From: Xestospongia bergquistia
Lineage: Eukaryota > Porifera > Demospongiae > Haplosclerida > Petrosiidae
Length of the DNA: 64,000 bases
Direction: 5' to 3'
Assembly (NCBI GenBank): GCA_963965975.1
Contig: OZ014418.1
Location: forward strand, 1,004,501-1,068,500
Each line of letters opens with the position of its first letter. Position 1 is the stretch's first letter. The position numbers were made by a program, and so were the translations under genes. Of the stretch, positions 54,996-62,780 are shown piece after piece. The notes beneath the pieces are model-generated. The model was given only the letters and a program-made list of their open reading frames with translations. It was not told the origin of the DNA and did not search any database.

Positions 54996-55112
54996 ATATT
55001 ACATGACTTGTATGAAATTTTAATAGTTAATATTATTTAAGTTTTATTATTATTAATAATTATTAATGTTATAAGGATAGTTGATGGGGAAATCCCCACC
55101 CATTCCTAGCAA

Positions 55113-56675
55113 ATGGCTACATTGCAGGACGTTGTAGATGCTGAACTTCGTTGTGCTATATGTCATGACCGTTTAAAGAGCCCCAGAGTTTTACCTTGTC
55201 TCCATTCATTCTGTGAGGCATGTCTAGATCAAGTAATAGCTCGAGTTCAGCCAACAGGCAATGTTAATTGTCCCCTTTGTAACGCTTCTCACCCTAGACC
55301 TTCTAATGGAGCGAAGGGCTTCAGAGCCAATTTTACTCTAAGTAACATCATCGAGGCACGAGAACTCCACGACGCAGAATTGGAAACTCTACAATTAAAA
55401 TGCGAGAATGGTTTAGATTCTGATCCGGGAGTTGCTCGTTGTATTGATTGCGAATGTTATCTCTGTGTCTCGTGTCGTGATCAGCATATGAAGCTCAAAG
55501 CAACACGAACTCATCGTATCATTACATTAACTGACATCAAGAATGATGTCCGTAAGTTAGAGTACAAACGTTTCTGTATCGATCACGAGGAAGAGGAACT
55601 GAGGCTATACTGCAAGGATTGTGAGGAGGTCATTTGTAGAGATTGTACTATTGTGACTCATAAACCACATAATTATGATTTTATTAAGAATGTTCGACCC
55701 GAGTTAGAAGAAAAGATGCGCAGGCTTCTCCTTGAAGTTGAACGAAAATCCATTGAGTTTGATGACCACTTGAACTATCTAAATAAAGTAGAAGGTGATA
55801 GTAGCGATAATTTCCTTCAATCTGAACGACAAGTACGTTACTACTTTGAAGAGTATCGTGAAAGACTTTTAGCACAAGAAGAACACCTCCTTCAAACCTT
55901 GAAGGAGGCACAAGGTGAAAGAAGCAAACAGCTCTGCCATCATAAGGAAATTTTGGAAACTTCTAAAGCTAAACTAGAGAGTGCTAAAATGTTCGCTGAA
56001 CAACTTTTAGGGAAAGGTATTCCAGTAGATATTGCTATGATGAGCAAGCAGACATGTAAACGTCTTGAAGATCTTCAGACGGAAAATTGGGATCGTAATT
56101 CCATTCAACCTAGTCAATGGGCTTTCATGCCTGATGATGATCCTTTCAAGGCCAAAATTTGTGGTGGAATTAGTCGTGGTGATATCAAAGTTGAAAATCT
56201 TGGACAACCAATAAAGGGTTCCAATGAATTTATTGTGCATTTAAATTCTGACATTGACTCCACCCACAGTAATCTAGTTGTCTCTGTAACAGATAATAAT
56301 GGACAACCTCTCCCAAACATTCAAATCAGAAAAGAAGACAAACACAGCTGGAAGGTGACTTATAACATAACTACTGATGGTATTTACAAATTCTCAGTTT
56401 CTGTGGATGGTATTGATGCTGCTAAGAGTCCTTTTGTTCGTGAGTGGGCTGCAAAATTGTCACGAAACATGCGAGTTCGACGTGGTAACGATTGGAAATG
56501 GGGAGACCAAGATGGTGGTCCTGAGGCTTGTGGGACAGTCATGGGTTGGGCCGAGGAGGTTGGAGCATCCAATAACTGGGTCAAAATCAAGTGGGATAAG
56601 ACCAACCGACAAAATAACTATCGCTGGGGAGCTGAAAGTTCATATGATTTGCAGATTGTTGTTCGTCACGAATAG
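55113..56675 (+). CDS. TRIM-filamin protein with MIB/HERC2 domain
   Basis: One exon, 520 residues. RING finger at 14-56 (CAICHDRL, CLHSFCEAC, CPLC); B-box 1 at 97-134; B-box 2 at 155-186 (CIDHEEEELRLYCKDC); coiled coil ~195-300; a filamin-type Ig repeat ~355-445 (ISRGDIKVENLGQPIKGSNE, GIDAAKSPF); and at ~452-517 an MIB/HERC2 domain (RVRRGNDWKWGDQDGGPEA, WVKIKWD, NNYRWGAESSYDLQIV). The RING predicts ubiquitin ligase activity; in Mind bomb the MIB/HERC2 domain binds substrate tails such as Notch ligands. RING-B-box-coiled coil-filamin is known (TRIM45 and the TRIM-NHL group), but I do not know a TRIM ending in MIB/HERC2. It starts 117 bp after SEC23 on the same strand and has CCCCACCCA just before its ATG. 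Confidence 0.92.
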   Translation: MATLQDVVDAELRCAICHDRLKSPRVLPCLHSFCEACLDQVIARVQPTGNVNCPLCNASHPRPSNGAKGFRANFTLSNIIEARELHDAELETLQLKCENGLDSDPGVARCIDCECYLCVSCRDQHMKLKATRTHRIITLTDIKNDVRKLEYKRFCIDHEEEELRLYCKDCEEVICRDCTIVTHKPHNYDFIKNVRPELEEKMRRLLLEVERKSIEFDDHLNYLNKVEGDSSDNFLQSERQVRYYFEEYRERLLAQEEHLLQTLKEAQGERSKQLCHHKEILETSKAKLESAKMFAEQLLGKGIPVDIAMMSKQTCKRLEDLQTENWDRNSIQPSQWAFMPDDDPFKAKICGGISRGDIKVENLGQPIKGSNEFIVHLNSDIDSTHSNLVVSVTDNNGQPLPNIQIRKEDKHSWKVTYNITTDGIYKFSVSVDGIDAAKSPFVREWAAKLSRNMRVRRGNDWKWGDQDGGPEACGTVMGWAEEVGASNNWVKIKWDKTNRQNNYRWGAESSYDLQIVVRHE

Positions 56676-56885: not shown

Positions 56886-59434
56886 ATGGCTACAGAAGAG
56901 AGTAGACTATTTCAAAAGTACTTCAGTGACATTAGTAGTGCATTGACAGCTAATCATCAATCTTGTCTTGTCTTAGCTAATCTTTGTTGTTCCAGATATT
57001 TGATTGATCAGCAGGTCAGAAATCAAATCCAAGAAGAAAAAGGGATCTATGCAGCTAACACTTTACTAAAATGCTTAGAAGCAAAGGTGGTCGTCGAGCC
57101 TTCTTGCTTTGAGGCGATTTTAGATGTATTAAAAGAGGAATGCATGTTGTGTGCGATAATTGAAAACATGCAAAAAGACTACAAAGATGTTGAGCGGCTT
57201 GAGCCTACAGCAGACCTACCTCACCCCAATATTGGTAAGTTCATCTATATGATTTACAACTCAATTTTTCTTTTAATTCAGTCATTGCTGAGCTTCAAGA
57301 TGAAATTCAATCAAAAACTGATATGTTTTCCCAGATTGAGGGTTTATGCAACAAGTTTGACTGCCTTGTTGCAACTATTAAAACAGTAATGCGTACACGT
57401 GGTATTAATGTCGAAGATCTCAAGACCCCGCTAGAATCAAAGCTTTCTCGAGCATCTAACATAGTTCAGGTATCTTATATGCCTTCATTGAAGAAAGTCA
57501 AAACAGTTGAAGAGTTTTTTAATTTCATTTTGCAACACAAATTTTGTGGGTTTTTGAATTTCAGCCTCCTTACAATATATGCTGAAAAACATGGCAATGA
57601 TGAGGCAAAGAAAGAAATTAAAGATTACAATTCTGCATTTCAGAATTTTGCAAAAGCTGTAAAAATGGATGAGCTACTAAAAGCAATTTTGAATAAACCT
57701 GGACTCCCAAAGCCTTTTGCTCCAATTGGTCTCCCTATTCTTGAATTCACACTTGAAGAGTCGTGGTACCAACGTAGTTATAATGTTTTCACGGAAATTC
57801 TGAGTGGCTTTTTCTCATGTTCAAATGCATTATTGTTTAATTCGATTGAAGAAAATTGCATAAAAATATCTTATTGCCTCTTTCCTGATGTTTTGGAGTC
57901 TGTAATGCAGGATCTAGACAATTCAAAGCAACTGAAAATGTTAGGAATTGATGTGGTCCTACACACAGAGCAAAAACAGAAAAATTCAAGTAATTTTAGT
58001 ATATATGTTGTTGACTAAAATATTTAATTTCATTTTAATTTTTCACAGGACCAAATACTCATTATATCAGAATGAAACAATGTCTCACATGTCCAATTTG
58101 CAAAGAGATCTTCAAAGATCCAAAGGTCTTATCCTGTCATCATTCATTTTGTTTGCAATGTCTTTCTTCTGTTAAAGGAATACATTCAGGTTTGTTCATA
58201 AGTATATGACTTGAGTTATCTTAAAACTGATCATTTAGGTAAGATAGAATGTTCCATGTGTCGAAAAATTGAAGTGCTTCCTAAAGAAGGTATACAAGGA
58301 TTATCTCCAGCCCATCACCTTTCTGCCTTTATTGAATTGCTATCAATTGAGGAGACTCCTATAGCTGCTCGTACAAGTACAGGATGTAGCAGTGACAACT
58401 GCAATAATCTTCCAGTTGCTTGGTGTGAAATGTGTGAAAATCTTTGTAAAAATTGCGTGGAGAGCCATGGGAGAATGAAGGCAACCAAAAGTCACGAAAT
58501 TACGTATATTGAGGAAATTAAAAGTTCTGGCAGAGTACCGGCATCTGTTTTGCTAAAATGTCCTAAGCATGGAGAATTACTCAAGCTTTATTGTGAAGAT
58601 TGCAACAAGATTGGATGTCGTGAATGTTTTGATGACGTTGATCATGATTCCCAAAAAGATTCAGTTGAAGAGCAAACTATTAGAAGTAAAGAAAGAAAAG
58701 AAAAACGTCATGATTTACTCTCATTGAATGGTTTGGTGAAGGAGGGAGAGAATAAAAGCAAACATTTAAAAGAAAACCAGAGAGATCTTGATTCTACTGA
58801 TAAAGCAGTGACTCTTTATATTGAGGACTTGAAGATGAGTACAGGGAAACTCTCCAATAAATGGAAAGATATAATCCAAGCAAAAAAAGAACAGCTGCAA
58901 AAAGAAGAAAGTGGACTCAATGAAGCCTATGAAAATGCTAAACGCTTCATCAATGCTAAGGAAAACACTCCATCAGCTAGTGCTCCAGAAGTGATGTTCA
59001 AAAAACTAGTGGAGTGGATAAATACGGAAGACAAACCTCCAACAAAGCCATGGCTAAGTTTGTCTGACACTTCAGCTAATATCGAAATTGTTGAACGACT
59101 TCCCTCTGACTCAATTCTTGTCACATTTCCAACTAATCCTCCGTCACTTAGTGTGGGAGACAATTTCTTTCACGTCAGTGTTATCAATTTTATACCTGTC
59201 AAATCTGCTCCTCAGCCAATAATAACAATTACTGGAAATCAATCCGAGTGTGTGGCACATATTAGAAAAGTTGGAAACCTCACCTGGTATGTATTGTTTC
59301 ATACTGAGGATTCTAAAGTTTCAATCACTATAACCATTGATGGAGTAACTTCCAATACTGATGGTACCCCAATAGTACTAGAGCACCCTTTCAATGATAG
59401 TAGTACTTCACAGGCACAAACAATAGCATTCTGA
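56886..59434 (+). CDS. CARD-like, helical and TRIM-filamin fusion protein
   Basis: Exons 56886-57234, 57282-57989, 58049-58189 and 58239-59434 join in one frame, 797 residues. Residues 5-100 look like a CARD/death fold: five helices, with [19 protein letters not shown] and [13 protein letters not shown] in the usual places. Residues ~155-350 are a module with [19 protein letters not shown] and, nearer its end, [20 protein letters not shown]. Then RING 367-407 ([22 protein letters not shown]), B-box 1 at 449-486, B-box 2 at 508-536, coiled coil ~540-650, and a diverged filamin-like end. The join at intron 57990-58048 has a GTAATT donor and TTTTTCACAG acceptor and keeps frame. The alternative is two genes: a CARD protein ending at 58018 and a TRIM starting at the Met at 58073. 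I favour one gene. Confidence 0.75.
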
Positions 59435-60164: not shown

Positions 60165-61575
60165 ATGGCTGGTCAATCTCTTGAAAAGTGTATTCACGAA
60201 GAACTCACTTGTCCTGTTTGCCTGGAAATTTTCGATAAACCCAAAGTGTTACCATGTCAGCACTCTTTCTGTACAAAATGCCTTCAAACAATCGTTTTTC
60301 AATCTCCCAATAAAGGTATAACGTAGTAAGTATTTAATATTACAATATTATGTTCTTTTCTTAGACGTAATAATTTGTCCACAATGTCGAATTGAGCATC
60401 CACTGATTGATTGTGATGTGAATCGTCTCAGCACTAACTTCACACTGTTAAATCTAATCGACATTTTAAATCGTCACCATGACAATGAGAGTCAAGATAC
60501 CACTACTACAAATGATGAGAACACTATACAGACATCTGAAGTTTCAAAATCAGTAGAACATCTTTCATTACTCTGTTCCGAGCACAAAGAGGAAAGACAA
60601 TTGTATTGCATACCTTGTGAATTAGTTCTATGCCATTTATGCACTCAAACTGAGTCTCATAAAGGTCACAATATAATGAATGCTGACAAAGCAAGGGACT
60701 ATTTGCTGGCGGAGATGAAACGTTTGATAGCAGAAGTTGAAACAAAAGAAAGTGAAGTAGAAACATGTTTATCTCAAATATCAAAAGCTCAAGAGACCGA
60801 TGCAATCTCTGTTAATACATGCAAAGAGGAAATGAGTAGTTTTTTTGATCAGAACATCAGTAAAATTAATGGTAAAATAAGTTATTATCAAGAAAAATTA
60901 GCACGGGTTAAAGAACAGCAGGACTTGTTAATGACAAAACTGGGCAAGTTACAATCTAGTCAAATAAAACAACAAGATGCCAACATTCAAACATTAGAAC
61001 AATCATTAGCAGATATCACCTCAGCATTAACAGCTGCTAGAAATCTCCATTCAACAAACGATAGCAACGATACTGATCCAAACAAAATACTCTGTCAGAT
61101 GAATGAAGTGACGAAACAACTAAAATCAGTCGCTGATTTTCGGAGATATTTGTTGGAAGTACCTCCTCTACAATTATCATTTTATCGAAATGATCCAGTT
61201 AAAACAGACATTATTGATAAAAGAAGCATATCAGTTAAGGGATTAAAAAGAGCTAAAGTTGGTATCAATACGTTCACTATATCATATGGGCAACCCTTAG
61301 TCTGTCAGGATCCTAACATACAGGTAACAGTGACATTACCCAATGGAAAACCCTGTGACCCTGAGGAGATCAAAGTGAAATCCTCTGGAGAAAATTCCTG
61401 GGAAGTGACTTTTTACATTTCTGCTAGTTCCATTCGTTTCTCCGGGTTGTTCACTAGCAATCACATGATCACTGTCGTTGTAAAGATGGGCGGAGTTGAT
61501 GCTATTGGGAGTCCATTTAGTGTTACTTGTGATAAACTATTAAGTAAAGACTTTTTGACTGATCTCGTTGTGTAA
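60165..61575 (+). CDS. TRIM-filamin protein
   Basis: Two exons, 60165-60315 and 60365-61575, 453 residues. RING at 16-58 ([28 protein letters not shown]), split by the intron at the same place as in the CARD-TRIM gene; a single B-box 2 at 121-152 ([22 protein letters not shown]); coiled coil ~165-300; filamin-type repeat ~345-440 ([34 protein letters not shown]). No B-box 1 and no NHL repeats. Expected to be a RING ubiquitin ligase scaffold. The shared RING intron groups it with the CARD-TRIM gene rather than the intronless MIB/HERC2 one. Confidence 0.93.
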
Positions 61576-62401: not shown

Positions 62402-62780
62402 TCATAGTCTCATTTCGTCAGCTATTCGAGAGGCAATTTGTTTAAATGCCATTGTATTGCCCGATATTCGTTTAAAACGAACACCATTTAATGAGAGGCG
62501 TGGCAACTTGCACACCTCCATTTCCCATTGAATAAGATCTCCACCTTCTCCTTCACCATTAGCACAGAGAATGAGATAACGATCTCTTTGTTCATAGTCA
62601 ATAGACAAGAGATCAAGAACACGTTTGATTTCAACAATCATATTGTAAGCATCCATTGCAGAGGTCGTTTTCATGCTCCATGTGAACCGAAGAGATCTAG
62701 GTTTTTCCTGTTGTTCTGCTACTGGTGTGGATGATGATCCTCTGAAAAGAAAAATGGTAATAACATTTTGTCTACCTCTC

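Follow-up and report, generated by a model that had tools for sequence, protein, structure and literature searches.

A probable CARD-TRIM fusion gene in the sponge Xestospongia bergquistia, from a large gene family that resembles TRADD-N proteins in layout

The ubiquitin ligases cIAP1/2 hold a CARD and a RING ligase in one chain, the CARD lying between the BIR domains and the RING, and have no B-box, while TRADD recruits its ubiquitin ligase as TRAF2. Kaur et al. (2021) report 357 NCOA6-clade TRADD-N proteins in Amphimedon, most of which carry one to three Death-like domains in front, TRADD-N behind these, and a C-terminus that varies (PMC8195603). The same text describes DEDD2-clade TRADD-N proteins whose fusion partners include AIG, sacsin and TRIM E3 domains, characterizes the TRADD-N fold as RRM-like, and proposes that TRADD-N bridges and restrains the domains that flank it (PMC8195603). 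Three other papers place a PYD at the position of the RING in pyrin/TRIM20 (PMC4455283) and filamin in TRIM45 (PMC3503706), and report NLRs that carry CARD or DEATH from Dysidea avara (PMC12909245).

We analyzed a stretch of 64,000 nucleotides of the X. bergquistia genome (C8:1004501-1068500, hereafter the window), using the 146.5 Mb of that genome, in 21 contigs, for searches. The initial annotation had traced in the window an exon chain that keeps one frame from an N-terminal death-fold-like domain into a RING, and this chain is real: rebuilt as four exons on the + strand, it runs in one frame from the ATG at 56886 to the stop at 59432-59434 and encodes 797 residues with no internal stop or frameshift. 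We read it as probably a single spliced gene that would encode, in order, a CARD, a module whose second half is probably TRADD-N, a RING, B-boxes, a helical region and an unrecognised C-terminus. The gene and its relatives in the genome fit the published TRADD-N layout closely, and the protein is an example of that layout, not a new kind of protein. The family had been thought undescribed, a view that the 357 Amphimedon proteins and the DEDD2-clade TRIM fusions in the text of PMC8195603 overturn, since the class is described there. Those DEDD2-clade fusions are alike in having Death-like, TRADD-N and TRIM ligase parts in one chain, but according to that text they belong to the other clade, usually have a DED and not a CARD, and come from other invertebrates (PMC8195603). 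The exact sponge order of CARD, TRADD-N-like part and TRIM was not found in the literature searched, the source data of Kaur et al., which may include the gene, lying outside this comparison.

All three introns of the chain (47, 59 and 49 bp) have GT-AG borders and are in phase 1. Exon 1 (56886..57234; residues 1-116), assigned as CARD from profiles built with its relatives, ends in phase 1 and is followed by intron 1 (57235..57281, 47 bp, GTAAGT...ATTCAG), whose donor ranks in the top 6.2% of 3575 GT sites and whose acceptor ranks, by pyrimidine content, in the top 2.1% of AG sites. Exon 2 (57282..57989, 708 bp), which holds the module, is symmetric (1-1). The joining intron, intron 2 (57990..58048, 59 bp, GTAATT...TCACAG), leads to exon 3 (58049..58189), which comprises a linker and the start of the RING from C367 to C390. 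Intron 3 (58190..58238, 49 bp) falls inside the RING, and exon 4 (58239..59434) holds the end of the RING, the B-boxes, the helical region, the unrecognised C-terminal region and the stop.

CARD is the best call for exon 1, and it comes through relatives rather than from the single sequence, which matched zero Pfam families. PDB profile searches with exons 1 and 2 returned no CARD or TRADD-N match, and a fold search with the AF2 model of exon 1, a poor, low-confidence model made from the single sequence (pLDDT 49, five helices), returned nothing at E 0.001 and is given no weight here. Within its own genome, exon 1 matches C15:670098 (E 0.008). That relative, used as a query, recovers 49 places with E no higher than 0.05, window exon 1 among them (E 0.0015, 32% identity). 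In a set of 50 sequences, a small database whose E-values are not genome-wide, phmmer matched the window exon to L084, L106, L015, L062 and L061 at 1.1e-8 to 4.2e-5 and to 0 of 13 recognised CARDs. When the window exon and eight relatives were aligned by hhalign with 13 Pfam-recognised CARDs of the same genome (drawn from 16 places above the Pfam cut-off), the probability was 95.1% (E 3.1e-8), compared with E 0.2 against nine Death exons and a best E of 0.042 among 100 column shuffles, so the death fold claimed for the N-terminus is supported through the relatives and narrowed to CARD. The same comparison minus the window exon gave E 1.7e-8, and the window exon alone failed against the CARD profile (E 0.079); because the profiles score equally well without the window exon, it is kinship with those relatives that carries the CARD call. 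A second set, which includes L015 and three NLR-side exons, aligned to the CARD profile at E 3.8e-9 and to the Death profile at 0.06 (best of 60 shuffles, 0.0031). The window's group is also linked, at hhalign E 1.2e-15, to a family of related CARD-like exons, at least 150 in number; when 16 of them were compared with Pfam, CARD matched 10 (best 1.3e-4) and SHOCT_2 matched seven (best 0.0021). An alignment holding three unrecognised helical first exons was kept out of the CARD evidence. We consider it very unlikely that exon 1 is instead some other small helical bundle, a reading that the lack of a direct Pfam or PDB match and the poor AF2 model would favor: the CARD profile scores beat the shuffled and Death controls, and NACHT domains stand behind the exons at L062, which the window exon matches, and at L060, which is related to L015.

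Several observations on the CARD-like exons stand apart from the window gene. At least 150 copies are found genome-wide (for example L063-L082), several of them with stop codons, and by reading a Death-type exon precedes the CARD-like exon in 13 of 20 loci. At L060:1119-3229, a Death-like domain (0.0031, below the cut-off), a CARD-like exon related to that of L015, and a NACHT follow one another in order, the composition of an NLR.

The initial annotation had left the module encoded by exon 2 unnamed. It is present as an exon, but it is not unique, and belongs to a large gene family: with exon 2 as the query, 61 other places were found at E up to 0.01 with 19-32% identity, a count that leaves out the window's own two places and includes a few that match chiefly the CARD part. 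Death exons precede the module copies L018, L019, L020, L024, L025 and L027, all six scanned frames matching Pfam Death at 2.3e-6 to 3.9e-4 (three of the six above the cut-off). Other modules are preceded by an unrecognised helical exon, by a CARD-like exon (L015) or by nothing within 1.5 kb. The unrecognised helical first exons that were scanned (L011, L014, L016, L017 and L034) match neither Pfam Death nor CARD, and eight such exons show a weak likeness to the CARD profile (E 8e-4, compared with 0.33 against Death). Behind modules we found frames for sacsin (L018, 1.1e-32) and AIG1 (L031, 1.1e-18); these Death, module and effector joins are adjacencies of frames, not proven transcripts. The family thus appears, from frame adjacency, as a large expansion of an N-terminal unit placed before changing C-terminal parts, and two units stand in tandem at L012, L026/L064 and L034. 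Among loci of the CARD-like exon family, 19 of 20 show, by reading, a second module type behind the exon; an hhalign comparison across 185 columns (84.7%, E 6.7e-6) makes this type a homologue of the module in the window gene. A module found with the exon 2 query lies within 3 kb of only seven of the 150 CARD-type places listed and of only one of the 48 exon-1-type places. In the window gene a Death-like domain likewise lies directly before the module, as a CARD exon followed by a module exon. We read exons 1 and 2 as a copy of the unit that this large family, probably of the Death-like plus TRADD-N type, repeats in front of variable C-termini.

Two further module copies were noted in passing. 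An AIG1/GIMAP-like GTPase frame (L031:2-856, -) lies about 570 bp behind its module copy, and at C1:26904670-26905605 (-) of the genome (G000) a CARD and module are matched without an intron and with one stop, perhaps as a retrocopy.

The C-terminal half of the module (57737..57961, +) is probably TRADD-N-like, with a profile match that is weak, sub-threshold and confined to relatives. The Pfam profile PF13820 (NCOA6_TRADD-N) matches three of ten module C-terminal halves at E 0.034-0.14, over profile positions ~16-83 and below the cut-off, and does not match the C-terminal half of the window copy. Across the whole genome, where eight candidates were scored, PF13820 picked out four places with E no higher than 1 (0.18-0.46, each below the cut-off). 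Every one of them sits behind a CARD-type exon at a distance of 478-497 bp, as the C-terminal halves of modules do; that they overlap the module is judged from this spacing and the length of the frames. Single members also match unrelated families with scores about as good (EIF_2_alpha 0.025, WH_RGF3 0.014, Cnd1_N 0.015), and when whole modules of the second type were scanned, one of ten matched PF13820, at 0.065 and behind several unrelated families. Such matches, together with the empty PDB searches of the module, the lack of any Pfam match above the cut-off in the members scanned and the lack of a TRADD-N profile match in the window copy, would suit a distinct domain, other than TRADD-N, that goes along with Death-like domains. 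We regard that alternative as rather unlikely, and set against it the position of all four genome matches behind CARD-type exons, the layout shared with the published Amphimedon family, and two structural features. Single-sequence AF2 of exon 2 (pLDDT 44) predicts a helical N-terminal half and a beta-alpha-beta-beta-alpha-beta C-terminal half, a low-confidence topology that would agree with the RRM-like fold of PMC8195603. By reading, Ser or Cys occupies the presumed beta2-beta3 turn in 20 of 22 rows, with a one-column offset between the two module types; the window turn (EENCIKISY) has NC where the motif is uS, with S sometimes C, so that its Cys is allowed and its N is not tiny.

Exon 2 may include a second Death-like domain (57485..57637, +), for which relatives match Pfam DED weakly: three of 14 first-type modules match, with a best E of 0.0071, far below the cut-off, and the window copy does not. 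Two of the 20 DED matches in the genome lie in module frames.

Taking the C-terminal half as probably TRADD-N-like, the window gene and its relatives resemble the Amphimedon NCOA6 clade, as its text describes it, in an N-terminal Death-like domain, a probable TRADD-N, a variable C-terminus and many copies (PMC8195603). The many TRIM, CARD-like, Death and module copies of the genome likewise recall that expansion. The differences are that the TRADD-N match of the window family is weak, and that the text of the paper does not name TRIM as a C-terminal domain in Amphimedon (PMC8195603).

The TRIM part begins with a RING (58090..58261, +, interrupted by intron 3) that matches Pfam zf-RING_UBOX (PF13445) at 2e-8, above the cut-off, and keeps, by reading, all eight zinc ligands (C367, C370, C382, H384, C387, C390, C404 and C407), in agreement with the RING claimed earlier. 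Two B-box-like stretches follow (58397..58645, +). The second is a zf-B_box above the Pfam cut-off (1.2e-5, residues 505-535), although its last ligand position is, by reading, not His; the first has a sub-threshold ANCHR-like match only, best over residues 453-487. The filamin-like end that had been proposed is not recognisable in the C-terminal region (59084..59401, +). Pfam gave no filamin match there, and hhalign against nine filamin repeats of the same genome gave 1.1% (E 0.046), within the range of shuffles (best of 60, 0.026), while a neighboring TRIM reached 90.6% in the same test. Pfam also found no B30.2 in the window gene.

These features separate the gene from its nearest TRIM and RING counterparts. 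The chain shares a CARD and a RING with cIAP1/2, which are set apart by their BIRs and by the absence of a B-box. With TRIM45-like TRIMs it shares RING and B-boxes, but the filamin end reported for TRIM45 (PMC3503706) was not found in the window gene. With pyrin/TRIM20 (PMC4455283) it shares a death-fold domain mounted on B-box and coiled-coil parts, the coiled coil being putative in the window gene; pyrin/TRIM20 differs in having a PYD in place of the RING, no ligase, a B30.2 end and no TRADD-N mentioned in the passages on it, whereas the window gene has a RING and no B30.2. The same protein qualifies the earlier statement that death folds and TRIMs are separate proteins in vertebrates, as it joins a death fold to a TRIM scaffold (PMC4455283).

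The TRIM part lies in a run of TRIM genes on the + strand (55110-56675, 58072-59434 and 60165-61575). The TRIM gene at 60165-61575 has an intron in its RING that agrees with intron 3 in both residue and phase. The RING matches of this pair end at profile positions 25 and 26, and among the 150 RINGs listed only C11:6736422 (25) and C2:6333782 (29) end as early. TRIM genes have thus probably duplicated locally, although the neighbor is absent from the 95 genome matches of the TRIM part.

The surroundings of the gene offer observations of their own. The gene at 60165-61575 (+) is a two-exon TRIM with a filamin-like C-terminal region (90.6% by hhalign), and the open-frame TRIM at 55110-56675 (+) combines RING, B-boxes and filamin with an unusual end, a C-terminal MIB_HERC2 (8.3e-19). 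At 62402-62776 (-) lies a KA1 domain (3e-21), in a frame that we take to be probably the end of a MARK/Par-1-type kinase gene.

Whether the locus is a fusion depends on intron 2, and sequence features around it make it likely that exons 2 and 3 are joined by its splicing. Rows could be read behind the module for 23 of 26 module loci (L022 and L028 being one frame), and an NAG/GT donor was in phase 1 in 18 of the 23 readable rows, in phase 2 in two and in phase 0 in none; three further module rows have AAA/GTAAGT in phase 1. The window donor, CAA/GTAATT, is also in phase 1 and is weaker than the NAG/GT of most relatives, but ranks in the top 6.4% of GT sites by a matrix from 17 family donors, like that of intron 1 (6.2%). 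Scored by pyrimidine content, the acceptor falls among the best 2.1% of AG sites. Between 58048 and 58107 there are four AG sites, and only 58048, which gives the 797 residues, keeps the whole RING; use of 58105 would keep the frame and yield 778 residues with the first RING cysteines lost, and the remaining two lead to early stops.

The competing explanation is that two neighboring genes have been read as one, a CARD and module gene that ends at 58018 and a distinct TRIM gene, part of the TRIM run, that begins at 58072. TRIM genes do flank the locus on both sides, the RING intron position is common to the TRIM part and the neighbor at 60165, and an in-frame stop and an ATG are both present, the unspliced frame stopping at 58016-58018. 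We further estimate that the frame would be kept by chance about 1 in 4 times (1/3 for phase, multiplied by ~0.7 for seven stop-free codons ahead of the ATG). However, the 53 bp between that stop and the ATG at 58072 would have to contain both a gene end and a new start, and neither AATAAA nor ATTAAA occurs on the + strand between 57692 and 58517. The alternative ATG lies 6 residues before the first RING Cys, closer than in any of 18 TRIM loci, where the nearest Met is at least 8 residues away, and most of the family copies read continue beyond the module via a phase-1 donor. We therefore judge two separate genes to be unlikely and retain the joined chain.

A second fusion locus was not found: no RING lay within 10 kb downstream on the same strand of any of 61 module, 150 CARD-type and 48 exon-1-type places, among the RINGs listed. 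That search left out the window's own rows (two module, one exon-1-type) and used 150 RINGs scored of 334 candidates, so that weak or split RINGs may be missed; minus-strand CARD-type rows were placed by their low coordinate, with an error of ~300 bp. One module place has a listed RING 13.2 kb off (C13:2049035). The absence of a second fusion copy among the listed RINGs, the non-His last B-box ligand (by reading) and the unrecognised C-terminus could point to a decayed or artefactual copy, yet 797 codons without a stop or frameshift, the retained RING ligands and ordinary splice sites make this the least credible of the explanations that we weighed, and a very unlikely one.

For the joined gene we propose that a phase-1 exon pair encoding a Death-like domain and the module was joined to a TRIM, which would serve as its C-terminal part. 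As the most likely mode of action, the predicted CARD may dock on partners that carry a CARD (NLRs or caspase adaptors, for example) or polymerise with them, while the TRADD-N-like part would bridge and restrain both ends. Assembly could then bring RINGs together and lead to ubiquitination of the complex or of its captured cargo, and the assembled partners may themselves be substrates. This would resemble the action of TRADD, but with the ligase in the same chain. We infer ligase activity, partners and an immune role from sequence. Taken whole, a complete TRADD-plus-ligase device in one chain, in which the CARD recruits, TRADD-N bridges and the ligase is built in, and which arose as the phase-1 exon pair was joined to a resident TRIM, is a tentative reading that falls somewhat short of probable.

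If it is spliced as modelled, the gene is a clean case of a sponge building new immune-type proteins, in which a CARD and TRADD-N-like unit, set off by introns in phase 1, picks up an effector that is already complete, in this instance a ubiquitin ligase. If this is true, the gene would let the action of TRADD-N on a ligase in the same chain be probed.
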